A stretch of DNA of 64,000 nt. It comes from Hydrogenibacillus sp. (GTDB taxonomy: Bacteria > Bacillota > Bacilli > Thermicanales > DSM-22653). Location of the stretch: assembly GCA_014896255.1 (NCBI GenBank), contig JADBKT010000001.1:1-64000 (forward strand). The letters run 5' to 3'. The notes beneath the pieces are model-generated. The model had not been told where the DNA came from. It saw only the letters and a program-made list of their open reading frames with translations, and ran no database searches. This document shows, piece by piece, positions 5,848-24,712 of this stretch; within the stretch, counting starts at the first letter, position 1, and every line of letters begins with the position of its first letter. The position numbers and the translations under genes are program-made.

Positions 5848-7893
5848 CTAACGCGTATGCGTCGATATCTCCCACTTCGGGTAGACGCGCCGGACGACCC
5901 GAAGCGCCGTCTCGACGACGCGTTCAACCGTAAAGCCAAATTCCGCCATCAGCCGCTCGCCGGGCGCCGAAGCGCCGAAGCGATCGATGCCGAGCACCGT
6001 CCCGGCGTCGCCGACGTACCGTTCCCACCCGAACGGGTGCGCCATCTCGATCGCCACCCGGGCGCGGACCTCCGGCGGCAAAACCGATCGGCGATACGCT
6101 TCCGATTGAGCCTCGAACAGCTCCCAGCTCGGCATGCTCACCACGCGCACCCCAAGCCCGGACGAGGCCAGTGCCTCCGCCGCCCTCAGAGCCAGATCGA
6201 CTTCCGAACCGCTGGCGATCAGGATCACCTTCTCCGACGCCTTCGCAAATCCATGCTCGCGCAAGACGTACGCGCCGCGCGGAAGCGCGTCAAACGCCCG
6301 CTTCGCCGTCTCCGGAAGCACCGGAAGCCCTTGGCGGGAAAGAACGATGGCCACCGGACCCGTCGTCGTCTCCAACGCCACCTTGTACGCGGCGGACGTC
6401 TCGTTGGCGTCGGCCGGCCGGATGACGATCATGTTCGGCATGGCCCGGAGCGACGGCAAGTGTTCGATCGGCTGGTGCGTCGGACCGTCTTCGCCGACGG
6501 CGATGCTGTCGTGCGTGAGCACATACATGACCGGCGCGCCCATGAGCGCCGAGAGGCGCATCGCCGGCCGCATGTAGTCGGAGAAAACGAAAAACGTCCC
6601 GCCGTAGACGATCAGCCCGCCGTGGAGCGCCATCCCGTTTAAAATCGCCCCCATGGCGTGTTCCCGAACCCCAAACCAGATATTCCGCCCGGTGTAATCC
6701 GGCGGCGCAAAATCCCCCGCCTCTTTCAACGTCGTCTTGTTCGACGAGGCGAGATCCGCCGAACCGCCGATCAAATTCGGAAGAACGCCGGCCAACGCAT
6801 TCAGCACCTGACCGGACGCGTCTCGGGTGGCGATCTTCTTTCCGCCGTCCGCAGCAAAGCGCGGCAGGACCTCGCTTATGTTCTTCGGCAGCCGGCGCGC
6901 CAACGCCGCTTCATATGCTTCGGCGAGCTCCGGATGCGCCTTGCGGTAGCGCGTAAAGAGCGCCTGCCAGGCCGCTTCCGCCGCTTCGCCGCGGGCGCGC
7001 ACCGCGTAAAAATGCGCCCGCACGTCGTCCGGCACCTCAAACGGCGGGGATGTCCATCCGTAAGACGCCTTCGCCTGCGCCGCGTCCTCCGCCCCCAGCG
7101 GGGCGCCGTGCACGGCGCTCGTTCCGGCCTTGGCGCTGCCGTAGCCGATCACCGTGCGCACTTCGATCAGCGTCGGCCGGTCATGCGCCGCCTTGGCCTC
7201 GGCGATCGCCTGATCGATGGCCTGAAGGTCATGTCCGTCTTCGACCCTGAGCACCTGCCACCCGTACGCGCGAAAACGCGCCGCCACATCTTCGGTAAAC
7301 GCTTTGTCCGTCCCGCCGTCGAGCGAAACGTCGTTCGAGTCATAGAGGACGATCAGCCGCCCGAGGCGCAGATGCCCGGCCAGTGACGCCGCCTCCGCGG
7401 CGACGCCTTCCATCAGATCGCCGTCGCCGACCAGGGCATACGTATAATGGTCGACAATCGGAAAATCCGGTCGGTTGTACCGGGCGGCGAGGTGCCGCTC
7501 GGCCATCGCCATCCCCACGGCCATGGCGATGCCCTGCCCCAGAGGGCCGGTCGTCGCCTCCACGCCCGGCGTATGCCCGTATTCCGGATGTCCCGGCGTC
7601 TTCGAACCCCACTGGCGAAACGCCTTCAAATCGTCGATCGAAACGTCATAGCCGGTAAGATAGAGCAGGCTGTACAACAACATCGAGCCGTGGCCGGCGG
7701 ACAAAATGAACCGATCGCGGTCCGCCCATTTCGGATTGGCCGGATTGTGCCGCATATGCCGCGTCCACAGCACATACGCCATCGGCGCCGCGCCCATCGG
7801 CAAACCCGGATGCCCGGACTTGGCCTGTTCGACGGCGTCGATCGACAGCGCGCGGATGGCGGCGATCGCCCGAGCGCTCAAGTCGTCCGTCAT
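5848..7893 (-). CDS. tkt: Transketolase
   Basis: Transketolase of 681 residues, close to the usual 660-670. It transfers two-carbon ketol units between sugar phosphates using thiamine diphosphate and Mg2+. In the Calvin cycle it helps regenerate ribulose 5-phosphate. Motifs include [17 protein letters not shown] near the N-terminus, the [20 protein letters not shown] segment, and the ThDP motif starting GDGDLMEG. The pyrimidine-binding domain follows ([27 protein letters not shown]). The start is the ATG at 7893, with AAAGGGGAG in front; upstream sequence in frame is shadow of the reductase gene. It follows that reductase by 41 bases and precedes nuoM. Confidence 0.95.
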
Positions 7894-7934: not shown

Positions 7935-8957
7935 TCAACGCTGACCCATGGGAATGTCCGTCCGGTCGCTGGAGTGGATGGTCGAAAGCTTCGCCGTCGG
8001 GTCGATGTACGTCTTGGCGTTCGACACGGCGATCGGCGCCTCGCCGAGGCCCACGGCGATGAGCTTGATCTTCCCCGGGTAGGTCGTGATGTCGCCGATC
8101 GCGTAGACGCCCGGAATGTTCGTCTCCATCTTGGAGTTGACGACGATGCTGTTGCCTTCGATGTTGAGTCCCCAATTTTTGATCGGGCCGAGGGAAGCGG
8201 TATAACCGAGGCCGCTGACGACGGCGTCGACCTCGAGACGTTCCGTTTCCTGCGTCCGATTGTCGATCACCGTGACCGCCTCGACGCCCTCGGCCCCGTG
8301 GATTTCCTGAAGCTCCGTAAACAGTTTGACCGCGATCGACGAATTCATCAGCTGGTGGACGCTGTGTTCATGAGCCCGGAACTGATCGCGGCGATGGATC
8401 AGCGTCACCGCTTTGGCGACCGGCTCCAGCATGAGCGCATAATCGACCGCCGAATCGCCGCCGCCGACGACGAGTACGCGCTGGTCACGGAACGCCTCGA
8501 CCGAAGTGATGAAATAGTGAATGCCCTTGCCTTCGTAGTCATCGACGTTCTTGGCCGGAAGCTTCCGCGGCGTGAACGTTCCGATACCGCCGGCGATGAT
8601 CACCGCCTTGCTGTAATGACGCCCTTTGTTCGTCTCCAGGACGAACGAACCGTCTTCCTGCTTTTCCAGGCCGATGACCTGCTCCGACAGACAGATCGCC
8701 GGATTGAACTGCATGGCTTGTGTCTTCAGCTGTTCGACGAGATCCGCGCCGCGGATCTTCGGAAAACCGCCGACGTCGTAAATGTATTTCTCGGGATACA
8801 GGGCGGCCAATTGCCCTCCGAGCTGCGGCAGGCTGTCGATGACCTTGCACGACATCTCGCGCATACCGCAATAAAAAGCCGCAAAAAGACCCGCCGGCCC
8901 CCCTCCGATGACCGTGACGTCGTAGACTTTCTCGTCGACGACAGACGCTGTCGCCAT
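7935..8957 (-). CDS. Ferredoxin--NADP+ reductase, YumC type (thioredoxin-reductase-like fold)
   Basis: This 340-residue flavoprotein has an FAD motif [16 protein letters not shown], a second nucleotide-binding motif [13 protein letters not shown] and the C-terminal FAD motif [14 protein letters not shown]. There is no CxxC redox pair, which separates it from thioredoxin reductase. [20 protein letters not shown] matches Bacillus YumC-type ferredoxin-NADP reductases. It would move electrons between ferredoxin or flavodoxin and NADP(H). The location between cbbX and tkt suggests that it helps set NADPH supply for CO2 fixation, perhaps together with the NuoEFG-less complex I encoded nearby (inference). 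GAGGAGG lies about 11 bases before the ATG. Confidence 0.88.
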
Positions 8958-9065: not shown

Positions 9066-10043
9066 TTACTCAACCGACATTCGCGATCGGTCGGCGTCCG
9101 CACTGCCGAGCGGTTCCTGCATCACGCGGCTGGCCAAGATGTCTTCCGCCTCGATCGTCAATAGATCGGCGATCGTACAGGTGCTCAGCCCGTAGAGCCG
9201 GTTCGCCTGGCGCAGCCGCGCCCGATCGAGGGCGTTACGGACACTGCGGGCGTTGGCGAAGTGCGGCATCTGCATCCGCCGTTCGAGATAGCGGCGGAAA
9301 GCGTTTTCCGCCGCCGGACTAAAGCGGTATCCCTGTTCTCCGAGCATCCGCTTGGCGATCTCGAACAGTTCGTCGAGCGTATAGTCCGGAAAATCGATAT
9401 GGTGCGCGATACGCGAGCGCATCCCGGGATTCGATTGGAAAAACCGGTCCATTTTATCTTTGTACCCGGCCAAGACGACGACCAGATCGTCGCGGTTGTT
9501 CTCCATCACCTGCAGCAAAATCTCGATCGCTTCCTGGCCGTAGTCCCGCTCGTTCTCCGGGCGGTACAAGTAATAGGCCTCATCGATAAAAAGCACGCCG
9601 CCCATGGCGCGCTTCAGCACTTCTTTCGTCTTCGGCGCGGTGTGGCCGATGTACTGTCCGACGAGGTCGTCCCGCGTCACGGCGACGAGATGACCCTTGC
9701 GCACATAACCCAGGCGATGCAACATCTCAGCCATCCGCATGGCGACCGTCGTCTTTCCCGTTCCGGGATTGCCGGTCAACGACATGTGCAAAGAAGGCGG
9801 CGGCGTCGTAAGTCCAAGGCGCCGCCGCACGCGATCGACGAGAAGCAGCGCGGCGATCTCCCGAATTTTGGTCTTCACCGGCGCGAGGCCGACGAGATCG
9901 CGATCGAGTTGGTCGAGCACTTCGGTAATCTGTGTCTCGCGGACGATGGCCTGAAGGTCGACCGCTTCGGCGAGTTTGTCGTTCGGCAGCGCCTCCACCC
10001 GAAGCGAATCTTCCGCATTTTGCGCATCCTGTTGCACGGTCAT
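9066..10043 (-). CDS. cbbX: CbbX, red-type RuBisCO activase (AAA+ ATPase)
   Basis: This 325-residue AAA+ protein has Walker [10 protein letters not shown] at residues 91-99, Walker [10 protein letters not shown] at 150-158 and the pore-loop sequence [11 protein letters not shown]. CbbX forms hexamers that pull on the large-subunit C-terminus of red-type RuBisCO to release inhibitory sugar phosphates. It is usually activated by RuBP. It lies 70 bases downstream of cbbS in the typical cbbL-cbbS-cbbX order. AAGGAGGG precedes the ATG at 10043. Spo0VK/SpoVK-like proteins of Bacillus are the closest non-RuBisCO alternative, but the context settles the call. Confidence 0.95.
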
Positions 10044-10113: not shown

Positions 10114-10542
10114 CTAACCGTTGTAACGTTCGCCCTTCGGTCTGTCCGTGGCGTAACTGTGCAGCGTGTAGCGAATTTGCCGATCGCGCACTTCTTGCCT
10201 GATGACGTGGAAACCCGGTTCGTCTTTCGGCCGGTTGACGATGAACGACAGCGCCGTCGTTTGCCGCCCGTAGCTCCGATCGTAAGCGTTGACGCGGATA
10301 TAATGGTTCGGGTACGCTGCGCGGCATTGACGGATCTCATACAGCACGGCCGCCGGATCTTTCAGATCGAACATCGGCAGATCCCACATCTCCCAATAGA
10401 CGTTCCGCGGATGCGGATCATCGGTGAATTCGATGCTGATCGCCCAGCCGTTGTTCAAGGCGTATTCGACCTGCTTGAGGATCTCTTCGTCGGTCAGATC
10501 GGGGAGATAAGAAAAGGTCCCCTGCGTCAGGCGAAAAGCCAT
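10114..10542 (-). CDS. cbbS: RuBisCO small subunit (form I, red type)
   Basis: This 142-residue protein begins [21 protein letters not shown]. It has the conserved core [18 protein letters not shown] and [10 protein letters not shown]. It carries the extra C-terminal hairpin region (about residues 105-142) expected of red-type small subunits, which lines the central pore of the L8S8 enzyme. The start at 10542 is chosen over one eight codons upstream because AAGGGGCG lies just before it. It is 42 bases downstream of cbbL and certainly in the same transcript. Confidence 0.95.
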
Positions 10543-10584
10543 CGGATATCGCCCCTTCCGGATCATAAGATCAAAACGATCGGG

Positions 10585-12112
<1,528 letters not shown>

Positions 12113-12165: not shown

Positions 12166-12876
12166 TTATTGGATGGACGGTCCACGGGCATTCTCCCGTG
12201 CCTCGCGGGCGGCCCGATCGCCCGCCGCGCGGATCGCCTGGATCGCCGCCCGCCGATCGGCGTGGCCGAAGACCGCCGTGCCGGCGACGAGCACGTTCGC
12301 CCCGGCGCGGACGATCGCTTCGGCCGTCTCGGCGGTGATTCCGCCGTCGACTTCGATGTCCACGTCGGCCCGTCCGACGGCATCGAGCATCGCCCGCAAA
12401 GCGCTCGTCTTCTCGATCATTTGCGGGATGAACGCTTGACCGCCGAAACCCGGGTTGACGGTCATCAGGAGCACCATGTCGAGATCGGGGACGAGATGCC
12501 GCACCGCCTCGATCGGCGTTGAAGGCGTCAGGGCCACCGCCGCTTGGGCTCCCGCGGCACGGATCATCTGCACGGCGCGATGCGCGTGCGGCGTCGCTTC
12601 GACGTGAAAGGAGACGATGTCCGCGCCGGCGGCGATGAACTCGGGAATATAGCGCTCCGGCTCGACGATCATGAGATGCACGTCGAGCGGAAGGCGCGTA
12701 TGCGGCCGGATCGCCTTGACGACGGGGATGCCGATGGTGATGTTCGGCACGAACCGCCCGTCCATGACGTCGACGTGGATGAGATCGGCGCCGCCGGCTT
12801 CGACGTCGCGGATCTCCTCCGCCAAACGGCTGAAATCCGCCGACAAAATCGACGGCGCGATGGACAATGTGGACAT
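12166..12876 (-). CDS. rpe: Ribulose-phosphate 3-epimerase
   Basis: This 236-residue TIM-barrel enzyme interconverts xylulose 5-phosphate and ribulose 5-phosphate. Signature segments are IAPSILSADFSRL, HVDVMDGRFVPNITIG, MTVNPGFGGQAFIP and the closing VDGGITAETA. The metal-binding His and Asp residues are in HVDVMDG and VDGG. The start is the ATG at 12876 after GGGGAGG; a TTG five codons earlier is less likely. In the Calvin cycle it feeds PRK. It sits between glpX (27 bases upstream) and the cbbL promoter region, in the cluster from fba to tkt. Confidence 0.95.
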   Translation of the reverse strand: MSTLSIAPSILSADFSRLAEEIRDVEAGGADLIHVDVMDGRFVPNITIGIPVVKAIRPHTRLPLDVHLMIVEPERYIPEFIAAGADIVSFHVEATPHAHRAVQMIRAAGAQAAVALTPSTPIEAVRHLVPDLDMVLLMTVNPGFGGQAFIPQMIEKTSALRAMLDAVGRADVDIEVDGGITAETAEAIVRAGANVLVAGTAVFGHADRRAAIQAIRAAGDRAAREARENARGPSIQ

Positions 12877-12903: not shown

Positions 12904-13929
12904 TCACGCTTCTTCGACTTCGGCGACCCACTCCCGAACGTGATCGGGCTTGCTCGGCAGGTGGTGCCGGCCGTGGATAAAGCGCACCGTCTGTGTCCGC
13001 GCCCGCGCGACCAACGTGACCGTGTGCGCGGCGCCGCCGCCGACGAAGCGCACGCCGGAGAGGATCAGTCCGTCCGTCACGCCGGTCGCCGAAAAGATGG
13101 CGTCGTCGCTCTGGACCAGATCATCCAACGTCAACACGCGGCGCGCATCGTCGATGCCCATCGTCTTGAGCCGCGCCGTTTCTTCATCGTTTTGCGGCAC
13201 GAGGCGCCCTTGAAAATCCCCGCCCAAGCTTTTCATCGCCACCGCCGTGACGACGCCTTCCGGCGCGCCGCCGATGCCCATCATCAGGTCGATGCCCGTC
13301 TCTTCGAAGCAGGCGGCGATGGCCGGACTGACGTCGCCGTCTTGGATCAGCTTGGCCCGCGCCCCGAGCGCGCGGATCTCGTCGAGAATGTACCGGTTGC
13401 GCGGACGGTCGAGAAGGACGACGACGACGTCCTGCACCCGTTTGCCGACGGCCTCGGCGACGGCCAAGATGTTCTCGCGCACCGGTCGCTCGAGCGCAAT
13501 ACGACCCCGGGCTTTGGGGCCGACGGCGATCTTTTCCATATACATGTCCGGCGCGTGCAACAGTGCCCCGCGCGGGGCGACGGCGAGCACGGTGATCGCT
13601 CCCGGTGCGCCCGTGGCCAGCAAATTCGTTCCCTCCAGCGGGTCCACGGCGACGTCGACCTCCGGCCCGTCGCCGGAACCGACGCGTTCGCCGATGTAGA
13701 GCATCGGCGCTTCATCCAGCTCCCCTTCGCCGATGACCACCGTGCCGTCGATGCCGATCTCGCCGAGGACGGCGCGCATCGCCTTGGTCGCTGCATCGTC
13801 GGCCTGCCATTTGTCGCCCTTGCCCATCCAGCGGGCGGCGGCGAGCGCCGCCGCTTCGGTCACGCGGGCCATCTCCAACGTGAGCAGGCGCAAGTTGCCG
13901 CTTTTCAGCGTCTTCGCCCCACGCGTCAT
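12904..13929 (-). CDS. glpX: Class II fructose-1,6-bisphosphatase (GlpX type)
   Basis: This 341-residue GlpX-family phosphatase has the metal-binding and catalytic motifs GEGELDEAPML and VDPLEGTNLLATG, and MGIGGAPEGVVTA near the middle. In autotrophs GlpX enzymes often hydrolyse both fructose 1,6- and sedoheptulose 1,7-bisphosphate. No separate SBPase gene is seen, so a dual role is plausible but unproven. The ATG at 13929 shares a base with the gap stop codon (TGATG), indicating translational coupling. The C-terminal stretch after about residue 318 (HHLPSKPDHVREWVAEVEEA) is ordinary for the family. Confidence 0.93.
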   Translation of the reverse strand: MTRGAKTLKSGNLRLLTLEMARVTEAAALAAARWMGKGDKWQADDAATKAMRAVLGEIGIDGTVVIGEGELDEAPMLYIGERVGSGDGPEVDVAVDPLEGTNLLATGAPGAITVLAVAPRGALLHAPDMYMEKIAVGPKARGRIALERPVRENILAVAEAVGKRVQDVVVVLLDRPRNRYILDEIRALGARAKLIQDGDVSPAIAACFEETGIDLMMGIGGAPEGVVTAVAMKSLGGDFQGRLVPQNDEETARLKTMGIDDARRVLTLDDLVQSDDAIFSATGVTDGLILSGVRFVGGGAAHTVTLVARARTQTVRFIHGRHHLPSKPDHVREWVAEVEEA

Positions 13930-14963
13930 CACACCTGGTCCCCCACGCGGTCGAGTTCCTTCGTGCGCACGCCGATGTAATGGAGCAAATCGACCATGCG
14001 GTGGGCAAAGCCCATCTCGTTGTCGTACCAGCCGAGCACCTTGACCGTCCGCTCGCCGACGACCATCGTCGACAATCCGTCGATGACGCACGAATGCGGG
14101 TCGCCGATGTAATCGACGGAGACGAGGGGCTCATAGGAGACGTCCAAAATCTTCTGCAGTCGGCCTGCGGAGGCGTCCTCAAAGGCGGCGTTCACATCGT
14201 CCGGCGTGACCCGCGTCTTCAGCGTCGCCACCAGATCGACGATGGAGACGGTCGGCGTCGGGACGCGAATGGAGATGCCGTTCAATTTGCCGTTCAGTTC
14301 CGGGAAGATCTTCCCCATCGCCCGGGCGGCGCCGGTTGTCGTCGGAACGATCGATTGGCTCGCCGCGCGGGCCCGGCGCAGATCTTTGTGCGGATTGTCG
14401 AGGCTGCGCTGATCGTTCGTGAAGCTGTGCACCGTCGTCATCGCCCCTTCGACGATGCCGAAGCGCTCGTGCAGGACGGCGACGATCGGCGCCAGGCAGT
14501 TCGTCGTGCACGACGAGCTGGAGATCACGTCGTGGCGTTCGGGGTCATACAGATCATGGTTCACGCCGTAGACGACCATGAGATCGTCGGATTGGGCGGC
14601 GGTGGAGATGATCACCTTTTTCGCCCCGGCGCGAAGGTGCATCGCCGCCCCATCCCGCGTCGTGAATTGGCCGGTGGCCTCCAGGACGATCTCCGCCCCG
14701 AGCGCGCCCCACGGGAGGTTCAGCGGATTGCGGTCGGAGAACACGCGGATGCGGCGGCCATCGATGAACAGATCATCCCCGTCGGCGATCACGTCGACCG
14801 GCCAACGCCCTTGCGCGGAATCGTACTTCAACAGATGCGCCAGCGTCTTCGCGTCGGTGGTGGCGTTCACGGCGACGATCTCGAGTTCCGGATGGTTCCA
14901 CGCGGCCCGCAAGGTGAGGCGCCCGATGCGCCCCATGCCGTTGATGCCTGCTTTGACGGTCAT
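13929..14963 (-). CDS. gap: Glyceraldehyde-3-phosphate dehydrogenase, GapB-like
   Basis: This 344-residue GAPDH begins with the Rossmann motif INGMGRIGRL. The active-site segment SSSCTTNCLAP contains the catalytic Cys. WYDNEMGFAHRM lies near the C-terminus. The position after the second beta-strand reads NATTD instead of the NDLTD usual in strictly NAD-dependent glycolytic enzymes. It resembles the NADP-using, anabolic GapB type. That would suit reduction of 1,3-bisphosphoglycerate in CO2 fixation. It follows prk after a 109-bp gap with two hairpins and is coupled to glpX. Cofactor choice is inference from the motif. Confidence 0.92.
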   Translation of the reverse strand: MTVKAGINGMGRIGRLTLRAAWNHPELEIVAVNATTDAKTLAHLLKYDSAQGRWPVDVIADGDDLFIDGRRIRVFSDRNPLNLPWGALGAEIVLEATGQFTTRDGAAMHLRAGAKKVIISTAAQSDDLMVVYGVNHDLYDPERHDVISSSSCTTNCLAPIVAVLHERFGIVEGAMTTVHSFTNDQRSLDNPHKDLRRARAASQSIVPTTTGAARAMGKIFPELNGKLNGISIRVPTPTVSIVDLVATLKTRVTPDDVNAAFEDASAGRLQKILDVSYEPLVSVDYIGDPHSCVIDGLSTMVVGERTVKVLGWYDNEMGFAHRMVDLLHYIGVRTKELDRVGDQV

Positions 14964-15072: not shown

Positions 15073-16041
15073 TTAGGTGGCTCTCGCTTTCGGCGCGTCT
15101 TCCCCGCTTTGGCGCGCGACGAGCCGCTCGCGTTGGACGTCGCGCCCGTAGGCGAGTTCGACGATCATGCTGGCGATCAAGTACTGGGTGACTTTAATCG
15201 GCGTATAGTGCGTGTCGTTCATCTTTGCTTTCAAGTGGTGATTGTCGCTGATCATCTCCAGAAGCGCCGTCATCGATTCGATCGGCGTGTGTCCGCCGAT
15301 GTCGGCGATCTCCATGTCTTCGCCGACGATTTTGTCGTGGTAATGCACCGCTTCGATCAGTCCGAAGCGCGAACCGAGAGACAGCCACTTCACCAGGCGG
15401 CGTTTGTTGCCGTTTAACCGTTCGGCGATCTGTACCTTGATCGGTTCGGGATCGTCCGCCGACGGGGCGCGCGCATCGTCCGGAAAATACTTGATGACGA
15501 TGTCGGCAAAAGCCTTCTGCGGTTCGATGTACCGCTCGACGTCCGGTTTGCGCCGCTCGATCTCGGCCAACACCTCGTCTTCGGTATAGCCGCGCGTCGC
15601 GGCGTCGCGTCGCACTTTCCACCGCACCCGAAGACGCGTATCGGTGTCGAAATAGATCTTGAGATCGAGCGCCTCGCGCAGTTTTTCCAAGTACAGGATG
15701 TGCAGGCCTTCCAACAACACGATGTCCTTCGGGATGACGATTTCCGGGCCTTTGATCTTGCCGTCGCTGTGGTCGTAAATCGGTTTTTCGATCGCCCGCC
15801 CCGCTTTGAGCGCCCACACGTGCTCGATGAGCAGCCCGAGGTTGTTCGCTTTCCACGGATGGAGCGCCGTGATGCCCACCCGGCTCCGCTCCGTGCGGTC
15901 GAGCGAATGATAATCGTCGATGCTGATGACCGTCACCCGTTCTTCGCCGATCAGCGCCTTAAGCTCGGCGACGAACGTCGATTTTCCGGCACCGCTGTCG
16001 CCGGCGATGCCGATGATGGTCACCTTCCGTCCTGCCATCAT
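15073..16041 (-). CDS. prk: Phosphoribulokinase, class II (cyanobacterial/plant-like) without redox cysteines
   Basis: This enzyme of about 322 residues phosphorylates ribulose 5-phosphate to RuBP. The P-loop reads GDSGAGKST, followed by ISIDDYHSLDR, KPIYDHSDG, LLEGLHILY and RRDAATRGYTEDEVL. This pattern matches class II PRKs, not the roughly 290-residue class I enzymes of proteobacteria. The two regulatory cysteines of plant and cyanobacterial enzymes, in the P-loop and before IDDYHS, are replaced by Ala and Ser, so thioredoxin control is not expected. The start is ATG-ATG at 16041/16038 after GGAAGGT; the second ATG has the better spacing. It lies 109 bases downstream of fba. Confidence 0.92.
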   Translation of the reverse strand: MMAGRKVTIIGIAGDSGAGKSTFVAELKALIGEERVTVISIDDYHSLDRTERSRVGITALHPWKANNLGLLIEHVWALKAGRAIEKPIYDHSDGKIKGPEIVIPKDIVLLEGLHILYLEKLREALDLKIYFDTDTRLRVRWKVRRDAATRGYTEDEVLAEIERRKPDVERYIEPQKAFADIVIKYFPDDARAPSADDPEPIKVQIAERLNGNKRRLVKWLSLGSRFGLIEAVHYHDKIVGEDMEIADIGGHTPIESMTALLEMISDNHHLKAKMNDTHYTPIKVTQYLIASMIVELAYGRDVQRERLVARQSGEDAPKARAT

Positions 16042-16150: not shown

Positions 16151-17014
16151 CTAAAAGCGATGATGGCTGCCGAACAGGCGGATTTTTTTGCGGATCACTT
16201 CTTTGATCGCCTCCCGGGCCGGACCCAGATACTTGCGCGAATCGAACACGTCCGGCTTCTCCGCCAGCACCTTCCGGACGACGCGGGTGAATTCCGCCTG
16301 GCTTTCGGTGTTGACGTTGATCTTGCCGACGCCGAGGGCGATGGCCTGCCGGATGTCCTCATCCGGCACCCCGGAACCGCCGTGCAGGACGATGGGCTTT
16401 CCTGTCCGCTTGTGAATCGCCTCCAGGCGGTCGAAGGCGATCTGCGGGCGGCCTTTATAGAGGCCGTGCGCCGTGCCGACGGCCGGCGCAATGGCGTCGA
16501 TCTTCGTTTCCTCGGCAAACCGTTCCGCTTCGTCGACCCGCGCCAGCATCGCCTCGCGCTCGTCGACGCTCACCTCATCTTCCGTGCCGCCGATGCGCCC
16601 GATCTCCCCTTCGACGGAGACGCCGGCGGCATGCGCCGCCTCGACGACCTGTCGGGTGACGGCGATGTTTTCTTCCAGCGGGTGTTCTGATCCGTCGTAC
16701 ATGACCGAATCGAACCCGGCGCGGATGGCTTTCATGATAAAGTCAAAATCCGGTCCGTGGTCGAGGTGCAGGATGATCGGCACGCCGGCCTTGAGTTTCG
16801 CCGCGTTGGCCAGCGCGACCAGATAGTCGAGGCCGAAGTACTTCGTCGAGCTCACGCTCACGCCGAGGATGACCGGCGAGCGCTCCTCTTCGGCCACCTC
16901 GACGATGGCCTGCAAATACTCGAGGCCGTTCAAGTTGAACTGTCCGACGGCATACCCTTTTTGCACGGCATCGTTCAGCACTTCCCGATACGATGCTTTC
17001 GGCGGTACATACAC
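16151..17014 (-). CDS. fba: Class II fructose-bisphosphate aldolase
   Basis: This 287-residue Zn-dependent aldolase has LHLDHGPDFDFIMKAI, which contains metal-binding His. Other motifs are GEIGRIGGTEDEV, the AVGTAHGLYKGRP segment, VLHGGSGVPDEDI and GVGKINVNTE. It condenses triose phosphates to fructose 1,6-bisphosphate. In Calvin-cycle organisms it often also makes sedoheptulose 1,7-bisphosphate. The start is the GTG at 17014, preceded by GGAGG at 7 bases; no in-frame ATG lies near. It is the first gene after the promoter at 17145-17174 and probably heads the fba-prk-gap-glpX-rpe transcript. Confidence 0.94.
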   Translation of the reverse strand: MYVPPKASYREVLNDAVQKGYAVGQFNLNGLEYLQAIVEVAEEERSPVILGVSVSSTKYFGLDYLVALANAAKLKAGVPIILHLDHGPDFDFIMKAIRAGFDSVMYDGSEHPLEENIAVTRQVVEAAHAAGVSVEGEIGRIGGTEDEVSVDEREAMLARVDEAERFAEETKIDAIAPAVGTAHGLYKGRPQIAFDRLEAIHKRTGKPIVLHGGSGVPDEDIRQAIALGVGKINVNTESQAEFTRVVRKVLAEKPDVFDSRKYLGPAREAIKEVIRKKIRLFGSHHRF

Positions 17015-17229: not shown

Positions 17230-18699
17230 TCAAAACGCGCGCTGGATGACTTCGACGATCGGTCCGAAAAACAGCCCGCCGAGGAGCGATCCGACGACGC
17301 CGACGGCGAAGACGATGCCCGTTCCCGGGGAAAGGACGAGCGGCCGCTCCGTCTCCCCGGGGCGCATGAACACTTGGCTCAAGAGGGCGAAGTAATACCC
17401 GTACGAGATGAGCGTCGCCACCACGAGCGCGCCGGCCAGAACGAAGTGGCCGCCGGCAAGCGCGCCGAGCAAGATGTACCACTTGCCGAAAAACCCGGCC
17501 GTCAGCGGTATTCCGGCGAGCGACAAAAGCAAGACGAGCATCCCCACCGCCACCCCCGGGGACCGATGATACAATCCGGCAAACGCTTCCAACCGATACG
17601 ACCCGCGATCTTTGGCCACCGCTTCGATGATCGCGAACGCGCCGAGCGTCATGAACAGATAGGCGACGAGGTAAAAGGCGACCTGTTCGACGAACATCGG
17701 GCTCGCCGCGGCGAACGGGACGAAGAGGTAGCCGGCATGGGCGATCGAAGAGTAGGCGAGCATCCGTTTGGCGTCCGTCTGCCAAAGGGCGACGGCGTTG
17801 CCGATGAGCATGGACAAGGCGGCGATGAGCGCCAGCGTCGCCGCACTGCCGAAGGCGCCGTCCGTCCCGCGCCCATACTCCGGCAGACGGATAAAGACGG
17901 CGATCATCAGCCGCACGAGCACGGCAAAACCGGCCGCTTTGGAGACAAAAGCCAAAAAACCGGTGACCGCCGTCGGCGCGCCTTGATACACATCCGGCGT
18001 CCACATGTAAAACGGCATGCTGGAGGCTTTAAACGTCAACGCGGCAAACATGAAAAAAAAGCCGATATAGACGAGCGCCTCGTAACGCAACAGCGCCGGA
18101 TCGGTGAGGCGCTCGCCCAGCGCATACAAATCCGTCGTGCCGGTCAATCCGACGAGGAACGAGGCGCCGAACGCGAAGGCGGCCGTTGCCGTTGCCCCGC
18201 TCAAGACGTATTTCAGCGCCCCTTCGAGCGAAGCCACGGTGCGCTTTTTAAAGCCCACCAGGGCATAAGAAGCCACGGACAGCGTCTCGACGGCCACGAA
18301 CAACAACGCCATATCCCGCGCCGAGACCATGACGAGGGCGCCGAGGAGGCCCAAAAAAAGGAGGACGAGGGCGTCGCCCTCCGCCCGGCGGAAGGACGGG
18401 TCATGTTCATCGAGGGCCATGAACAAGACGAGCGCGGTGCCGAAGAGGAGGAGGAGCTTCATCATCAGGGCGAAACCGTCGACGACGAACGCCCCGGCAA
18501 AATCGCCCGGATTGCGGAACGACAGGACGACGGCAACGGCGGCCGAAAAAAGACCCAAAAAAGCGAGCGGATACAGCCCGCGTCGCGAGCGCTCCGGCGG
18601 GATGATGAGATCAACGAGGAGAAGGACGATCGCGAAAAACAGCACGATCGCCTCCGGCACGAGCAAATGCCACGGCAACGCCGTGAGCAAATCGGGCAT
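17230..18699 (-). CDS. nuoN: NADH-quinone oxidoreductase subunit N
   Basis: This 489-residue antiporter-like membrane subunit has many hydrophobic helices. FVAVETLSVASYALVGFKKR carries the channel glutamate. ASSMPFYMWTPDVYQGAPT is the characteristic NuoN segment. The start is the ATG at 18699, preceded by GGAGGTGAG. It lies 66 bases downstream of nuoL: subunit M, normally found between them, is absent at this place. It is the last nuo gene before the promoter of the Calvin-cycle genes, so read-through into fba is possible. Confidence 0.95.
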   Translation of the reverse strand: MPDLLTALPWHLLVPEAIVLFFAIVLLLVDLIIPPERSRRGLYPLAFLGLFSAAVAVVLSFRNPGDFAGAFVVDGFALMMKLLLLFGTALVLFMALDEHDPSFRRAEGDALVLLFLGLLGALVMVSARDMALLFVAVETLSVASYALVGFKKRTVASLEGALKYVLSGATATAAFAFGASFLVGLTGTTDLYALGERLTDPALLRYEALVYIGFFFMFAALTFKASSMPFYMWTPDVYQGAPTAVTGFLAFVSKAAGFAVLVRLMIAVFIRLPEYGRGTDGAFGSAATLALIAALSMLIGNAVALWQTDAKRMLAYSSIAHAGYLFVPFAAASPMFVEQVAFYLVAYLFMTLGAFAIIEAVAKDRGSYRLEAFAGLYHRSPGVAVGMLVLLLSLAGIPLTAGFFGKWYILLGALAGGHFVLAGALVVATLISYGYYFALLSQVFMRPGETERPLVLSPGTGIVFAVGVVGSLLGGLFFGPIVEVIQRAF

Positions 18700-18765
18700 G
18701 GATGCGCTCACCTCCACGTATTCATCGGTTCATCGTCGTTTCATCCCGAAGGGCGGCGCCGGCGA

Positions 18766-20682
18766 TCAGGAAGTGAGCACATAAGCGAGGAGAATAACGA
18801 CGAGAAACAGGAGCGCGATCAAGTTATAACGCTGGATCTGACCGTTTTGCAGTCTTGACAAAGCATATCCGAATCCTCTGACGGCGCCGACGGTCAGGGC
18901 GACGAGCCCTTCCAACACGCCCCGATCAACGACCTGTGCCGCGCGCCCCAGGGCCGACGCCCCGGCGGCCGCCCCACGCGCATACAGCGCATCGATGTAA
19001 AAGCCGTGTTTGAGCCATGCCCAGGGGATGCGTTCTGCCTGCGCCGTGCCCGCGCGTGCGCCGCGGGCCTCTCCTTGGACGAAAACCGCATAGGCCAAAA
19101 AGAGACCGAGAAGCGCCAGCGCGGTGGAAACGACGGCCAGCCACCGCGGCCCATGCACGTTCGCCGCCTGGATGCCGAGAAAGCGTGAAAACAGCGGTGC
19201 CGCCTCCGTCTCCACGAAACCGGCGATGACGGTCAACGCCGAAAGCACCCACAGCGGCGCGCGCATCACCGTCGGAACGGGACGCGCCTCTCCTGCCGCG
19301 CGCCCCGCGCCGACAGCGCGCGTCGCCGATCCGTGTCGCCCCGCATCCGGTGCCGGTTCACCGCGCGGCGGGCCGAGGAAGGCCAGTCCGAACATCCGAC
19401 CCATATACAGGGCGGTAAGCGGCACGGTGGCGAGAAGCAGCCAAAACCCCGCCGAACCGGACACACTGGACTGGGCCAGGATGCGCTCCTTGGAAAAATA
19501 GCCGGAAAGCGGCGGAATGCCGATCAACGCCAGCATGCCGAGCAAGAAAACCATCCCGATGAACGGCATCTTCTTCCACAGACCGCCCATACGCCTGAGG
19601 TCATATGTCCCGATCGCCGTATAGACGGCCCCGGCGCCGAGGAAGAGGAGCGCTTTGAAAAAGGCATGCGTCGTAAGGTGGAACATCGCCGCCGCCGCGC
19701 TCCCGACGCCGAGCGCATGCATCATGTACCCGAGCTGGCTGATCGTCGAATACGCCAGCACGCGCTTCATATCGTTCTGCCCGACGGCGACGAGCGCGGC
19801 AAAAAGCGCCGTAAATGCGCCGATCCAGGAGACGACGAGCGACGCTGTCGGAGAAGCGGCAAAAAGCGGAAAGAGGCGGGCGACGAGGTAGACGCCGGCG
19901 GCGACCATCGTCGCCGCGTGAATGAGGGCAGAGACCGGCGTCGGTCCTTCCATCGCGTCCGGAAGCCACACGTGCAGCGGAAACTGCCCGGACTTCCCGG
20001 CGGCTCCGAGAAAAATGAACAGCGCCAGGATCGTCGTCATCGTGGAGGAAAGCGAACCGTCTTGCACGGCTTGGAAGAGATCGTCGAACCGAAAACTGCC
20101 GACGTGCACATAGACGAGCCAGAGGGCGACGAACAGCCCGATGTCGCCGAAGCGGGTGACGAGAAACGCCTTTTGCGCCGCCCGTCGCGCTTCCGGACGG
20201 TGGACGTCGAAGCCGATCAACAAAAACGAAGCCAAGCCGACGAGCTCCCAAAAAATATACAGTTCCAGCAGGTTCGGCGCGAGCACCAGGCCGAGCATGG
20301 CCAGCGTGAACAGGCTCAAGTGTTGAAAGTAGACGGCGAGGCGCGATGCGCCCTGCATATAGCCGATGGAGTAGACGTGCACCAGAAAGCTGACCAGGCC
20401 GACGATGACGATCATCAGTGCGCTTTGAGGGTCGGCCGAAAGTTGCACGGTGACGTCCAGAGTGCCCAAGTTGAGCCAGGGGATCGGCGGACTTTCGACC
20501 GCCCCCGTCTCGTTTACGGCGAGATACACCACCGTCGAAGACAAGAGCGAGAGAAAGACGGCGGCCGAGCCGACGAGGCCGGCCCATCGGCGCAGCCGAT
20601 CGCCGAAAACGAGCAGCACAACGAAGGACAAAAAAGGCCAGCCCAAGACCAGCCACAGCGCGATGTGGGCATCCACCGCCAT
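18766..20682 (-). CDS. nuoL: NADH-quinone oxidoreductase subunit L
   Basis: This 638-residue proton-pumping subunit has FWELVGLASFLLIGFDVHRP with the channel glutamate, FPLHVWLPDAMEGPTPVSAL with HVWLPDAMEGPT, and AYSTISQLGYMMHALG. After about residue 480 the protein continues into the extra transmembrane and lateral-helix region that sets L apart from M and N. The start is taken as ATG 20682; a GTG two codons on (20676) has better spacing to GGGAGGTG. The segment around residues 425-450 is a proline/arginine/alanine-rich loop. nuoK lies 72 bases upstream. Confidence 0.95.
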   Translation of the reverse strand: MAVDAHIALWLVLGWPFLSFVVLLVFGDRLRRWAGLVGSAAVFLSLLSSTVVYLAVNETGAVESPPIPWLNLGTLDVTVQLSADPQSALMIVIVGLVSFLVHVYSIGYMQGASRLAVYFQHLSLFTLAMLGLVLAPNLLELYIFWELVGLASFLLIGFDVHRPEARRAAQKAFLVTRFGDIGLFVALWLVYVHVGSFRFDDLFQAVQDGSLSSTMTTILALFIFLGAAGKSGQFPLHVWLPDAMEGPTPVSALIHAATMVAAGVYLVARLFPLFAASPTASLVVSWIGAFTALFAALVAVGQNDMKRVLAYSTISQLGYMMHALGVGSAAAAMFHLTTHAFFKALLFLGAGAVYTAIGTYDLRRMGGLWKKMPFIGMVFLLGMLALIGIPPLSGYFSKERILAQSSVSGSAGFWLLLATVPLTALYMGRMFGLAFLGPPRGEPAPDAGRHGSATRAVGAGRAAGEARPVPTVMRAPLWVLSALTVIAGFVETEAAPLFSRFLGIQAANVHGPRWLAVVSTALALLGLFLAYAVFVQGEARGARAGTAQAERIPWAWLKHGFYIDALYARGAAAGASALGRAAQVVDRGVLEGLVALTVGAVRGFGYALSRLQNGQIQRYNLIALLFLVVILLAYVLTS

Positions 20683-20754
20683 CACCTCCCTGATTCCGGC
20701 GCGTTGGGTTTGTTGGCTCACCGCCCGCCCAACGCATCGACACGGCTTTTCCCA

Positions 20755-21096
20755 TCAGTGCTTCAGCGTATCGTGCATATCGACGTTCGGCGTCGCTTTC
20801 AGCCGATACAAGGCGATCAGGACGGCCAGCCCGACGGCCACCTCGGCCGCGGCAACGGCGATGATCATCAACGCAAAAACCTGCTCCGACACCGCCGGCC
20901 GGGCATCCGGAACGTCCGCGGTCAAGATCGCGGGCCCCGAGGAACTGAAGGCCACGAGGTTGATCAGTGCCGCAGCGAGCATCAGCTCGATCGCGAGCAG
21001 CACGATCACCGCATTCCGCCGCGTCAAGGCGGCATACAGGCCGACGGAAAACAACAGCGCGGCGAACAACACATACTGCGACAGAGCTGCTTCCAT
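20755..21096 (-). CDS. nuoK: NADH-quinone oxidoreductase subunit K
   Basis: This 113-residue protein has three hydrophobic segments. It contains the two membrane-embedded glutamates expected of subunit K, in AIELMLAAALINLVAFS and VAAAEVAVGLAVLIALYR. The acidic/proline loop between helices 2 and 3 (ADVPDARPAVS) is longer than in many homologues. The ATG at 21096 overlaps the nuoJ stop (TGATG); a GTG immediately upstream could also serve. It belongs to the membrane arm of complex I and participates in proton translocation together with J and the antiporter-like subunits. Confidence 0.95.
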   Translation of the reverse strand: MEAALSQYVLFAALLFSVGLYAALTRRNAVIVLLAIELMLAAALINLVAFSSSGPAILTADVPDARPAVSEQVFALMIIAVAAAEVAVGLAVLIALYRLKATPNVDMHDTLKH

Positions 21097-21623
21097 CACC
21101 GCCGATCCTCCTTCGCGCGATCGGGAGCGTCTTCCTTGGCCAAGACGACCGAGCCGATGAGCGCCGCCAACAGCAAAACGCCGATCAACTCAAAAGCGAG
21201 GACGTATTGACCGGAAAAAAGGTGTGCGCCGATTTCCGCAGCCGAAATCGGTGTCTCTCTCTCCACGGGGGTGTAAAGCGGCGTTCGGATCAACGCATAG
21301 AAAAAGATCGCAAACAACGCGGCCGAGACGAAAAGCGAAAGAAGGCGGTGCCAGCGGTTCGGATTCGCGGGCGGATCTTCGGCATCGTGCTTGGTGAGCA
21401 TGATGCCGAAGACGGCGAGCGTCGTCACCGCCCCGGTGTAGACGATCACCTGCATGACGCCGAGAAATTCCGCCCCGAGAAGGAAAAAGAAGGCAGCGAT
21501 ACCGAGAAAGCTGAGCGCCACGGCAAACGCCATATGCAACACGCGCGTCTCCGTGAGCATCACCATCCCGCCGATGAGCACGAAGGCGGCGACGATCAAG
21601 AAGACGACGAGGTTTGCCGCCAT
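21096..21623 (-). CDS. nuoJ: NADH-quinone oxidoreductase subunit J
   Basis: This 175-residue membrane protein has five hydrophobic segments. FLLGAEFLGVMQVIVYTGAVTTLAVFGIML is the diagnostic J motif: a pi-bulge helix followed by a loop, split here between two stretches. The start is the ATG at 21623, which lies inside the last 28 bases of nuoI; GGGAG sits 11 bases upstream. The C-terminal tail is charged (KEDAPDRAKEDRR). The gene is translationally coupled on both sides, to nuoI and nuoK. Confidence 0.94.
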   Translation of the reverse strand: MAANLVVFLIVAAFVLIGGMVMLTETRVLHMAFAVALSFLGIAAFFFLLGAEFLGVMQVIVYTGAVTTLAVFGIMLTKHDAEDPPANPNRWHRLLSLFVSAALFAIFFYALIRTPLYTPVERETPISAAEIGAHLFSGQYVLAFELIGVLLLAALIGSVVLAKEDAPDRAKEDRR

Positions 21624-22045
21624 GGCAAGTTCAACTCCCGCACGTTCGTATCGTTCGCATCGAGCCACTGCATGTCTTTGTTCAACGCATCGCGGCTGTA
21701 CGTCGCCAGCTCGAAATTCGTCGTCATGACGATCGCTTCGGTCGGGCAAACTTCCGTGCAAAAATCACATAAAATGCAGATTTCAAAATTGATATCGAAA
21801 TACTCCAGCACTTTCCCCTTTTTCTCCGGGTCCGGATGCGGCTTCCCTTTGAGCGTGATGCACTGTGTCGGACAAATGATCGCACACTGGTTGCAGACGA
21901 TGCACTTGTCCGGATAAAGCTTTTGAATGCCGCGCACGCGATTCGGGAACTCGAACGGTTCATCCGGGTATTTGGTCGTCACCTTCGGCTTGAACATCTC
22001 CTTGAACGTCACGCCCAAGCCTTTCAAGAGACCCGTCCCGTACAT
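21596..22045 (-). CDS. nuoI: NADH-quinone oxidoreductase subunit I (two 4Fe-4S clusters)
   Basis: This 149-residue ferredoxin-like subunit has two complete motifs: Cys48/51/54/58 in CIVCNQCAIICP and Cys90/93/96/100 in CILCDFCTEVCP. These hold clusters N6a and N6b, which pass electrons toward N2 in NuoB. Because no NuoEFG is encoded nearby, NuoI may be the docking side for ferredoxin or another donor, as in ferredoxin-using complexes (inference). The start is the ATG at 22045 with GGGAGGT about 10 bases upstream. The 3' end overlaps nuoJ by 28 bases. Confidence 0.95.
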   Translation of the reverse strand: MYGTGLLKGLGVTFKEMFKPKVTTKYPDEPFEFPNRVRGIQKLYPDKCIVCNQCAIICPTQCITLKGKPHPDPEKKGKVLEYFDINFEICILCDFCTEVCPTEAIVMTTNFELATYSRDALNKDMQWLDANDTNVRELNLPWRQTSSSS

Positions 22046-22086
22046 CCGCGAGACCACCTCCCAGGGCTGATGCATGCACGGAGGAT

Positions 22087-23103
22087 TTAAGAAACCCCTC
22101 CGGCGATGGTCTTGACCAATGACGTGAAGGCGATGTTCACGAGCGCCAAAGGCATGAGCACTTTCCACGAAAACGTCATGAGCTGATCGATGCGCACGCG
22201 GGGAAACGTTGCCTGCAGCCAGAACGGCAGGTAGGCGAAAAAGAGCGTTTTCACGACGAGCCAGACGATCCCCGGAATAAAGTCGAGCGCCGGGTGCGGC
22301 GGAAGCCAGCCGCCGAAGTAGAGAATCGCGATGAGCGCCCCCATGGCGAACAAGTAGACGTACTCCCCGAGCATGAAGATGGCGAAGCGGAAACCGCTGT
22401 ATTCGACTTGATAACCGGCGATGAGCTCCGATTCCGCTTCCGTAAGGTCGAACGGCGTGCGGTTGAGCTCCGCCAGAGCGGCGATGAGAAAGATGACGAA
22501 GCCGACGAACTGCGGGACGACGTTCCAGACGCCGCGCTGCGCTTCGACGATGTCGACGAGGTTGATGCTCCCGGCGAGCATGACGACGCCGAGCGCGGCG
22601 AGGACGAGCGGAATCTCATAGCTGATCATCATCGCCGCGGCGCGCATGGCGCCGATGAGCGACCACTTGTTGTTCGACGCCCAGCCGCCCATGATCACCC
22701 CGAGCGTGGAGAGCGAGGCGACGCCGATGTAGAAGAGGAGGCCGATGCCGATATCGGTAAAGGCGATGCGGTCGGTGAGCGGGATGACCGCAAAGACGAC
22801 GAACGCCGGCGCAAAGGCGACGATCGGGGCGAGCAAGTAGAGCGGACGGTCGGCGTGCGTCGGGACGAAGCTCTCTTTGGTGAGCAGCTTCAAGACGTCG
22901 GCGATCGTCTGAAGCAGCCCGTAAGGGCCGACGCGGTTCGGCCCGACGCGGCTTTGCATCCAGCCGAGCAGTTTGCGCTGGACATAGATGGCATACGTCA
23001 CCAGGAAGAGGAGGACGCCGAGGAGGATCAAAATGGACAGCACCATCCACCCAAACCGCTCCGCCGAAAGCGGCTCATACAACCAGTCGCGCACGTTACG
23101 CAT
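22087..23103 (-). CDS. nuoH: NADH-quinone oxidoreductase subunit H
   Basis: This 338-residue membrane subunit forms the quinone-binding chamber at the joint of the two arms. Conserved segments are RVGPNRVGPYGLLQTIADVL, AELNRTPFDLTEAESELI, GYQVEYSGFRFAIFML and FPRVRIDQLMTFSWK. The ATG at 23103 lies inside the end of nuoD (8-base overlap) with GGGGAGGTGG in front. Length and motifs are normal. It is in the standard order D-H-I, without nuoG between D and H. Confidence 0.96.
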   Translation of the reverse strand: MRNVRDWLYEPLSAERFGWMVLSILILLGVLLFLVTYAIYVQRKLLGWMQSRVGPNRVGPYGLLQTIADVLKLLTKESFVPTHADRPLYLLAPIVAFAPAFVVFAVIPLTDRIAFTDIGIGLLFYIGVASLSTLGVIMGGWASNNKWSLIGAMRAAAMMISYEIPLVLAALGVVMLAGSINLVDIVEAQRGVWNVVPQFVGFVIFLIAALAELNRTPFDLTEAESELIAGYQVEYSGFRFAIFMLGEYVYLFAMGALIAILYFGGWLPPHPALDFIPGIVWLVVKTLFFAYLPFWLQATFPRVRIDQLMTFSWKVLMPLALVNIAFTSLVKTIAGGVS

Positions 23104-24199
23104 CCACCTCCCCGAGGACGATGTCGATCGAGCCCAAGATGGCGATCATGTTGGCGATGTTTTCCCCGACGAGAAGCTTGGGCAAAAGCTGGAGATTGAC
23201 GAACGACGGGCGGCGGAAGTGGATGCGGTACGGCTGCGGCTTGCCCTCGCTCAAGATGTACACGCCGAGCTCGCCGCGCGGAGATTCCACGCTCGTGTAC
23301 ACTTCGCCGGCCGGCGGGCGGATGAGCTTCGGCAGCTTGGCCATGATCTCGCCGCCGGACGGAAACTGGGCGACGGCCTGCTCGACGATGCGCCGCGACT
23401 GCTCCAGCTCCGCCATGCGCAGCAGATAGCGCGCCCAGAGATCGCCTTCGGTCCGCACCGGCACCTCGAAGTCGAAGCGGTCGTAGATCGAGTACGGCTT
23501 CGCCTTGCGCACGTCGTAGGCGACGCCGGTCGAGCGCAAGTTGACGCCGGTGAGGCCGTAGGCGATCGCCGTCTCCTGATCGTATTTGCCGACGCCTTTT
23601 AGGCGCGCCTGGACGATCTCGTTGCCCGTCACCAGCGTATGGAACTCTTCCAAGGCGCCTTTGAAATCGTCGATGAACCGCCGGACCCGCCCGAGCCAGC
23701 CGTCGTCGGGGACGTCCCACTTGACGCCGCCGATGCGCATGTAGCTGTAGGTGAGCCGCGCGCCGGAGAGCTCGGCGAACAGCCGGAGAATTTTCTCCCG
23801 CTCGCGGAAGGCGTACAAAAACGGCGTGAGCGCCCCGATGTCGAGCAGATACGTCCCGAACCAGACGAGATGGCTGGCGATGCGGTTGAGCTCCATGGCG
23901 ATGACCCGGAGGTATTCCGCCCGCTCCGGAATCTCCAGTCCCATGAGCGTCTCCACGGCGTGCACAAGGGCATAGTTGCCGATCATCGCCGACAGGTAGT
24001 CCATCCGGTCGGTATACGGGATGATCTGCGTATACGTCAGATCTTCCGCGAGCTTTTCCGTGCCGCGGTGCAGGTATCCGATGACCGGCGTCGCTTCGAC
24101 GATCGTCTCCCCGTCGATTTTCACGATCACGCGGAAGACGCCGTGCGTGCTCGGGTGCTGCGGCCCGACGTTCAAGAGCATCTCTTCGGTGCGGATCAC
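23096..24199 (-). CDS. nuoD: NADH-quinone oxidoreductase subunit D
   Basis: This 367-residue 49-kDa-type subunit is homologous to the large subunit of NiFe hydrogenases. MLLNVGPQHPSTHGVFR, with the quinone-site histidines, GYLHRGTEKLAEDLTYTQ and ILGSIDIVLGEVD at the C-terminus are all typical. A shorter N-terminus is usual in Firmicutes. The start is the GTG at 24199 with GAGGGGG eight bases upstream and 3 bases from the nuoC stop. NuoC and NuoD are separate, not fused. Confidence 0.96.
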   Translation of the reverse strand: MIRTEEMLLNVGPQHPSTHGVFRVIVKIDGETIVEATPVIGYLHRGTEKLAEDLTYTQIIPYTDRMDYLSAMIGNYALVHAVETLMGLEIPERAEYLRVIAMELNRIASHLVWFGTYLLDIGALTPFLYAFREREKILRLFAELSGARLTYSYMRIGGVKWDVPDDGWLGRVRRFIDDFKGALEEFHTLVTGNEIVQARLKGVGKYDQETAIAYGLTGVNLRSTGVAYDVRKAKPYSIYDRFDFEVPVRTEGDLWARYLLRMAELEQSRRIVEQAVAQFPSGGEIMAKLPKLIRPPAGEVYTSVESPRGELGVYILSEGKPQPYRIHFRRPSFVNLQLLPKLLVGENIANMIAILGSIDIVLGEVDA

Positions 24200-24202
24200 C
24201 GC

Positions 24203-24712
24203 TTACACCCCCTCGTCATGCTGCTCATAGTCTTTGAGCATCGGGTGTCCGACCCAGTCGTCGGAAAGCAGGATCCGCCGAAGGTCGGGGTGGCCCTCAA
24301 AACGGACGCCGAAGAGGTCGTACGCCTCGCGTTCGTGCCAGTTCGCCGTCGGGTAAAGGTCGACGAGCGAGGGCACCGAACCGCCGGGGCGCTCGGTCTT
24401 CACCCGGATGCCGAGCATCCGCCCCGTCTGATGCGACTGGAAGACGTAAAACACTTCGAGGTGCGTCTTCAGATCGCTGGCGTGGAGGTCGTTCAGGAAG
24501 TCGAAGCGAAAAAGCGGTTCGTCGCGCAGCATCCGTGCCACGTCCGACAGGCGCCGCTTGTCGACGACGAGGACCGGCGAGTGGGACAGATGCGGGTTCA
24601 ACTCCGCCGACTCGATCACGCCTTCGCCGAGCGCCGCGGTCAATTGCTCGACGAGCGCCTGAAGAAAGGCGTCGTCGGCCGGCGCGATCGGCGGCACGCG
24701 CTTAATGCCCAC
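24203..24712 (-). CDS. nuoC: NADH-quinone oxidoreductase subunit C
   Basis: This 169-residue 30-kDa-type subunit has the signature [19 protein letters not shown] followed by [14 protein letters not shown]. It belongs to the peripheral arm and helps hold NuoD and NuoB. The start is the GTG at 24712, which lies in the last 11 bases of nuoB; GGGTGA is a weak ribosome-binding site, so translation is probably coupled. The first 35 residues are variable. Confidence 0.95.

Follow-up and report, generated by a model that had tools for sequence, protein, structure and literature searches.

Proteobacterial and plant-type phosphoribulokinases (PRKs) catalyze a common reaction and belong to a common superfamily of P-loop kinases, the plant-type enzymes having been called 'class II' in an older naming. 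The accessible portion of PMC9199185 names the plant-type enzymes 'class IA' and assigns two thiol pairs, Cys19/Cys41 and Cys230/Cys236, to the cyanobacterial PRK. The RuBisCO of Hydrogenibacillus schlegelii, Kyrpidia tusciae, Brockia and Sulfobacillus species is described as type 1-E in the part of PMC5928048 open to us, and the available text of PMC10215811 reports a type 1-E Calvin cycle in a second Hydrogenibacillus species, from coal-fire vents. An autotrophic Thermus highly expresses a set of cbbLSX and PRK genes (PMC13019369, partial text), and the form I RuBisCO of Thermus forms a separate clade (PMC12999727, partial text).

The locus described here lies within a 64,000-nucleotide stretch of Hydrogenibacillus sp. 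DNA (the window). The host is a member of the Bacillota and a relative of thermophilic bacteria that oxidize hydrogen. Its genome (G000) is 1.9 Mb and 92.5% complete, and G001 is the sole same-genus relative among 40 genomes drawn. Between positions 3217 and 26176 on the minus strand, Calvin-cycle genes are found inside a complex I operon, in the order rpiB-nuoABCDHIJKLN-[fba-prk-gap-glpX-rpe-cbbLSX-fnr-tkt]-nuoM-LysR. All genes of this run are on one strand and the widest gap is 248 bp, between nuoN and fba with the fba start as called. The features are as follows.

25667..26176, minus strand: rpiB-type sugar-phosphate isomerase, with which the run opens (PF02502, 201 bits)
17230..25618, minus strand: nuoA, B, C, D, H, I, J, K, L and N, in this order from 25618 down
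16151..16981, minus strand: fba, class II fructose-bisphosphate aldolase; start uncertain, the open reading frame extending to 17059
15073..16041, minus strand: prk, plant/cyanobacterial-type phosphoribulokinase, 322 aa, no Cys
13929..14963, minus strand: gap (TIGR01534, 404 bits, cut-off 367)
12904..13929, minus strand: glpX, class II fructose-bisphosphatase (TIGR00330, 412 bits, cut-off 259)
12166..12876, minus strand: rpe, ribulose-phosphate 3-epimerase (TIGR01163, 292 bits, cut-off 213)
10585..12039, minus strand: cbbL, form I red-type RuBisCO large subunit, no Cys
10114..10566, minus strand: cbbS, RuBisCO small subunit, by position and by the L048 homologue, annotated as small subunit
9066..10043, minus strand: cbbX, red-type RuBisCO activase (TIGR02880, 516 bits, cut-off 459)
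7935..8957, minus strand: fnr, thioredoxin-reductase-like flavoprotein without CxxC (TIGR01292, 198 bits, below the cut-off of 343)
5848..7893, minus strand: tkt, transketolase (TIGR00232, 944 bits, cut-off 682)
4219..5736, minus strand: nuoM (TIGR01972, 438 bits, cut-off 264), with the cbb cluster between it and the remaining nuo genes
3217..4164, minus strand: LysR-type regulator, CbbR-like (best NCBIfam match CbbR)

Among the complex I genes, nuoA, B, C, D, H, I, L and N were identified by profile match, and nuoJ and nuoK by position and small size; a loss of nuoM, suspected where nuoL is followed by nuoN, proved wrong, the gene being at 4219-5736. The only NCBIfam match of the cbbS product is a weak one (CcmM, 21.9 bits). 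The flavoprotein at 7935..8957 is probably a ferredoxin-NADP reductase, enzymes whose thioredoxin-reductase-like members are expected to have no CxxC motif, and a similar gene is found in the five relatives with the full cluster. The LysR product scores 227 bits against the CbbR model NF045990, below its cut-off of 450, and is thus not a member of the proteobacterial CbbR family as modeled; a LysR gene 59.9-83% identical to that of the window is found next to the cluster or within it in all five full-cluster relatives.

The prk gene is an open reading frame, stop codon included, whose ATG at 16041 gives the product of 322 aa; with an alternative TTG start at 16098 the protein would be 19 residues longer and would include one Cys, and in relatives the alignment begins near the ATG. 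The product scores 290 bits against NF005655, the model for the plant/cyanobacterial subfamily (cut-off 236; the Synechococcus genome served as positive control), and 38 bits against the proteobacterial model NF011997 (cut-off 362), whereas control PRKs from the red-type clusters of Afipia and Sinorhizobium score oppositely, with 515 and 487 bits to NF011997 and no NF005655 match at E 1e-20. It has the motifs GIAGDSGAGKST, SIDDYHSLDR and KPIYDH, and like the plant and cyanobacterial PRKs (6hzk, 6gve, 6h7g) it combines this NCBIfam subfamily with their fold and active-site motifs. Lys20 of the P-loop, Asp42, Arg49, Arg52, Arg145, Asp146, Arg164 and Asp167 are invariant across 24 aligned PRKs, and as Lys20 is retained along with the conserved Asp, Arg and His residues, PRK catalysis is expected; judged from its sequence, the product is most likely an active PRK. 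The search for PRKs gave this one match in the host genome at its 92.5% completeness, and no second PRK.

The predicted structure (pLDDT 89.5, pTM 0.87) aligns best with PRKs of cyanobacteria, archaea and plants (Z 25.9-32.1), with Z of 32.1 to cyanobacterial 9qkp, 30.9 to archaeal 5b3f and 28.6 to Synechococcus 6kev, and less closely with the Rhodobacter enzyme 1a7j (Z 20.5 over 244 residues, 20% identity). Uridine kinases, at Z 21-22 over ~200 residues, score higher than 1a7j, so the fold by itself is insufficient to fix the function. The C-terminal third aligns poorly in sequence with characterized PRKs, the phmmer alignment to 6hzk ending at residue 208. The NF011997 score, the opposite-scoring controls and the fold rule out the proteobacterial class; the plant-type assignment exceeds chance, and the enzyme is an ordinary representative of the plant/cyanobacterial/archaeal branch, within a Bacillota clade. 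The class II pattern proposed in the initial annotation is borne out, and the grouping with class I that it had named as the contrary outcome is not seen. As a separate observation, a ~700-codon open reading frame annotated as phosphoribulokinase on a Hirschia baltica plasmid (L050), amid sugar and lipid genes, encodes a larger protein of which a PRK-like domain is one part.

The nearest solved structures to the CbbL are 25hn, 1bwv, 4f0h and 1bxn, of which we take 1bwv and 1bxn to be the red-type RuBisCO of Galdieria and Cupriavidus. In the tree it falls among the Bacillota called type 1-E in the accessible part of PMC5928048 and outside the five rows of IC/ID (100/99), IE not being resolved as one clade, and the window RuBisCO is probably form IE.

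The arrangement of the cluster is shared with a subset of the Bacillota. The order fba-prk-gap-glpX-(rpe)-cbbL-cbbS-cbbX-fnr-tkt is found again at L021, L096 and L097, rpe not being found in the clusters of L096 and L097, and the same genes are present in Alicyclobacillus (L022) and G315 (L098) with tkt relocated, and at L098 with fnr relocated too. These five (L021, L022, L096, L097, L098) are the loci with the full cluster among 13 Bacillota loci opened with flanks. The remaining eight do not show it: the Sulfobacillus-type loci L023-L026 have fba and prk only in the 19-21 kb read, with cbbL elsewhere, L101 has cbbX-rpe-prk, the Brockia-like L099 and L100 have cbbL-cbbS-prk, and in G594 (L102) the PRK and CbbL are from other branches. 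The closest match is H. schlegelii MA 48 (L021), with the same cluster, flanking nuo genes, a Cys-free PRK and a Trp insertion; its PRK is 87% identical over 303 residues to that of the window, a divergence at species level only.

The PRKs of G025 and G044, which we take to be Kyrpidia-like, of Alicyclobacillus tolerans and of Sulfobacillus form one clade with the window PRK (96/95), and all have the Trp insertion and no redox cysteines. This insertion, Trp63 (15853-15855), adds one residue in HPWKANN where other PRKs have DPRANN or similar, and it is present in 11 of 11 PRKs of the Bacillota clade and 0 of 54 others; situated in a conserved loop, it could alter the kinetics. The genomes G002 and G004 are presumably Brockia-like, a label based on PMC5928048. 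Their CbbL lies near Hydrogenibacillus on a long branch and their PRK outside the clade of 11, as its sister (96/96), and a shared placement is not rejected (p-AU 0.069). The same-family PRKs of these genomes (L004 in G004, L005 in G002) have DGYHSLNR instead of DDYHSLDR and no Cys, and no match to cbbX was found within the stretch read at either locus.

Two further observations concern PRK genes in the wider sample. A PRK-like gene occurs with no match to the window CbbL at E 1e-20 in five of 16 genomes (G652, G792, G403, G1085, G1048), which may use a different form of RuBisCO, be incompletely sequenced or employ the PRK-like protein for some other purpose. The PRK genes at G862:C170:453-1367 and G816:C62:64799-65713 read through one in-frame TAG, representing a pseudogene, a sequencing error or recoding.

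The initial annotation noted that red-type RuBisCO normally goes with class I PRK in proteobacteria, as is seen in the red-type clusters of Afipia and Sinorhizobium; in a third, that of Phyllobacterium, no PRK is annotated in the stretch. It also regarded a plant-type PRK accompanying red-type RuBisCO and CbbX as odd, which the wider sample does not support. A plant-type PRK lies with cbbL, cbbS and cbbX on one strand in 11 of 31 PRK loci read with flanks (L021, L022, L096, L097, L098, L103, L106, L110, L111, L112 and Allomeiothermus L048), and in ten of these, from Bacillota, Chloroflexota and Eremiobacterota, the RuBisCO is red-type, Allomeiothermus being the eleventh. L104 and L108 are less clear, with genes on the opposite strand or a broken cbbL, and a Mycobacterium plasmid has a plant-type PRK, red-type RuBisCO and CbbX within ~10 kb. 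The Thermus/Allomeiothermus cluster resembles that of the window in joining cbbLSX to a plant-type PRK, but its PRK is 33% identical, keeps Cys41 and is of another subclade, and its RuBisCO belongs, according to the accessible part of PMC12999727, to a form I clade of its own.

Whether the cluster is a mosaic, its PRK derived from another lineage than its RuBisCO as the initial annotation proposed, was addressed by comparing the PRK and CbbL phylogenies, and the answer depends on the depth considered. When 25 taxa from several phyla are compared, the data of each gene reject the tree of the other (p-AU 1.8e-13 and 3.5e-12). The PRK data likewise reject a clade of the Bacillota with the Chloroflexota PRKs of G614, G626 and G949 (lnL 70 lower), a group picked after the trees were seen and in which the G949 row is a second PRK copy, whereas the CbbL of G614 and G949 adjoins the Bacillota with moderate support, at 93/90 (in the 25-taxon run, bootstrap 65% and SH-aLRT 93). 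Among the 11 Bacillota, in contrast, the PRK and CbbL trees have identical topology (lnL difference 0.0001 and 0.00005). Whether the PRKs of the Bacillota group with those of the cyanobacterial plant type is neither established nor refuted by the data (p-AU 0.247), the CbbX tree is too weakly resolved for use and does not hold the seven Bacillota as one supported clade, and the proteobacterial PRK sits on a 5.7-unit branch, so that its position carries no meaning. The conflict over 25 taxa makes an old swap of PRK or RuBisCO likely, and the identical Bacillota topologies, with gene order kept in five loci, place any such swap earlier than this group, probably long before the Hydrogenibacillus lineage. 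The mosaic is thus retained as an old event and set aside within the Bacillota, and as an account of this cluster we consider it doubtful; on the evidence of these trees and gene orders, the PRK is inherited together with RuBisCO among Bacillota autotrophs and is not part of a recent mosaic.

The position of the cbb genes among those for complex I offers another view of how the pathway could be governed. H. schlegelii has the same nuo-cbb order as the window, and in G025 and G044 the two sets are rearranged but adjacent (LysR-fba...tkt-nuoM-rpiB-nuoA...N); no nuo genes were found in the stretches read of Alicyclobacillus (L022, L150, L151) and G315 (L098, L152, L153). NuoF was found in none of eight genomes at E 1e-20, while seven of 14 control genomes gave a match, and the encoded complex, judged from NuoF alone, appears to be without the NADH-oxidizing module. 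A different contig, C27, carries a further set of nuoL, M and N. We tentatively suggest a supercluster in which CO2 fixation is coupled to electron supply: complex I, driven in reverse by the proton-motive force, would move electrons to ferredoxin from quinone reduced by H2, the FNR-like protein would use the reduced ferredoxin to supply the Calvin cycle with NADPH, and carbon fixation would follow the supply of reductant instead of thiol switches. A search of the literature, subscription papers lying outside it, gave no account of the nuo-cbb arrangement in the texts available, and the arrangement is a better lead than the Cys-free PRK.

Alignment to the cyanobacterial PRKs 6gve and 6hzk places Ala18 (15988-15990) and Ser40 (15922-15924) at the redox-cysteine positions, in agreement with the Ala and Ser reported in the initial annotation at the two thioredoxin-target positions, and the protein of 322 aa has no Cys at all. 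Neither thiol pair of the 'class IA' redox definition is thus present, the N-terminal pair 19/41 being replaced by Ala18 and Ser40 and the C-terminal pair 230/236 being absent from a protein with no Cys. Thiol regulation of the enzyme itself is therefore impossible; control through other cysteines, which the initial annotation had allowed for as a contrary finding, is ruled out by the same count. Plant and cyanobacterial PRKs have both pairs and a CP12 partner, whereas the window PRK and its genome have neither: CP12 (PF02672) was found in none of 11 genomes including that of the host (92.5% complete), the Synechococcus control being positive.

The distribution of these cysteines was examined in 65 aligned PRKs, comprising Bacillota, Chloroflexota (the best-scoring, from 30 loci, near-copies counted), Eremiobacterota, two plasmid-borne sequences and four solved chains, with archaeal and algal PRKs outside the set. 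The count excludes uridine kinases, the ~700-aa Hirschia protein and loci that repeat genes already included; for the PRK tree two uridine kinases were retained as outgroup, and ten near-copies were further removed for the careful tree. Cys19 and Cys41 occur together in two of the 65, both cyanobacterial solved structures, Cys41 alone in 36, neither in 27 and Cys19 alone in none, so that 36 of the 38 PRKs with Cys41 are outside the plant-type cyanobacterial enzymes. By parsimony on one tree, Cys19 needs one change and Cys41 at least seven. The whole Bacillota PRK clade is without Cys41, and all seven PRKs over the cut-off among 398 sampled genomes of the host's class are without both redox cysteines. 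The occurrence of Cys19 in 2/65 PRKs and its single change suggest that the N-terminal pair was probably gained toward oxygenic phototrophs and not lost in the Bacillota branch, where Cys19 was probably never gained; an ancient loss may have occurred, the parsimony coming from one tree without archaeal or algal PRKs. The word 'lacking' in the initial annotation, with its implication of loss, is accordingly not borne out.

The absence of cysteine is also unexceptional for this organism. Cys makes up 174 of 51,803 residues (0.34%) over 160 genes called on the window's contig of 183.5 kb. The genes of this one contig were called with a purpose-built program whose training set was 17 genes of the window, which biases the values mildly. 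The Poisson chance of no Cys in 322 residues is 0.34, and no Cys is present in 8 of 22 proteins of 290-360 aa and 48 of 99 of 250-1200 aa; with Cys codons scored neutrally, the values are 0.37% Cys, 7 of 21 and 46 of 99, respectively. With such a proteome, and 8/22 similar-sized proteins free of Cys, a Cys-free PRK is not more than expected by chance. The CbbL is also Cys-free in this species, H. schlegelii, G025, G044, G002 and G004, the remaining 24 CbbL having 1-7. It is improbable that an ancestral thiol switch was specifically lost under selection because chemolithotrophs living in the dark need none: Cys41, present in 38/65 PRKs and absent across the Bacillota clade, is what such a loss would predict, but its partner Cys19 is restricted to 2/65, Cys41 itself changes at least seven times, and the ten cluster proteins, with 9 Cys in 3,499 residues, are not significantly poorer than the rest of a Cys-rare proteome (165 in 48,304; Fisher p 0.54).

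Allosteric control by NADH and AMP as in proteobacterial PRK, independently acquired, also has little to recommend it, for nothing in the sequence speaks for it, even if the host probably oxidizes H2 in the manner of its relatives (PMC10215811, partial text), and the fold and sequence of the enzyme belong to the other class. In the texts within reach of our search, which did not extend to subscription papers, no description of the regulation of these Bacillota PRKs was found. The effector site of proteobacterial PRK is tied to its octamer.

We regard it as very probable that the Hydrogenibacillus enzyme is a PRK of the Bacillota clade, co-inherited with its RuBisCO and free of thiol and CP12 control, with flux set by transcription and supply. 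It would make ribulose-1,5-bisphosphate from ribulose-5-phosphate and ATP, the substrate for a red-type RuBisCO of form I, probably IE, that has CbbX as its activase. Thiol and CP12 control would be absent with Cys19 never gained and a Cys-poor proteome leaving no other Cys in place. Control by means other than thiols is plausible from the sequences at hand: flux would be set by transcription of the cluster through the adjacent CbbR-like LysR gene, and also by the supply of ATP, NADPH and substrate.

Finally, these comparisons correct a picture centered on the proteobacteria, as plant-type PRK is found alongside red-type RuBisCO and CbbX in several phyla other than the proteobacteria, and the PRK thiol switch looks like a trait of oxygenic phototrophs, not something that other lineages have lost. 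The Cys-free PRK and RuBisCO large subunit might serve as oxidant-tolerant parts for the engineering of CO2 fixation, and the position of the cbb genes within an operon for complex I hints at where H2-driven autotrophy might draw its NADPH.
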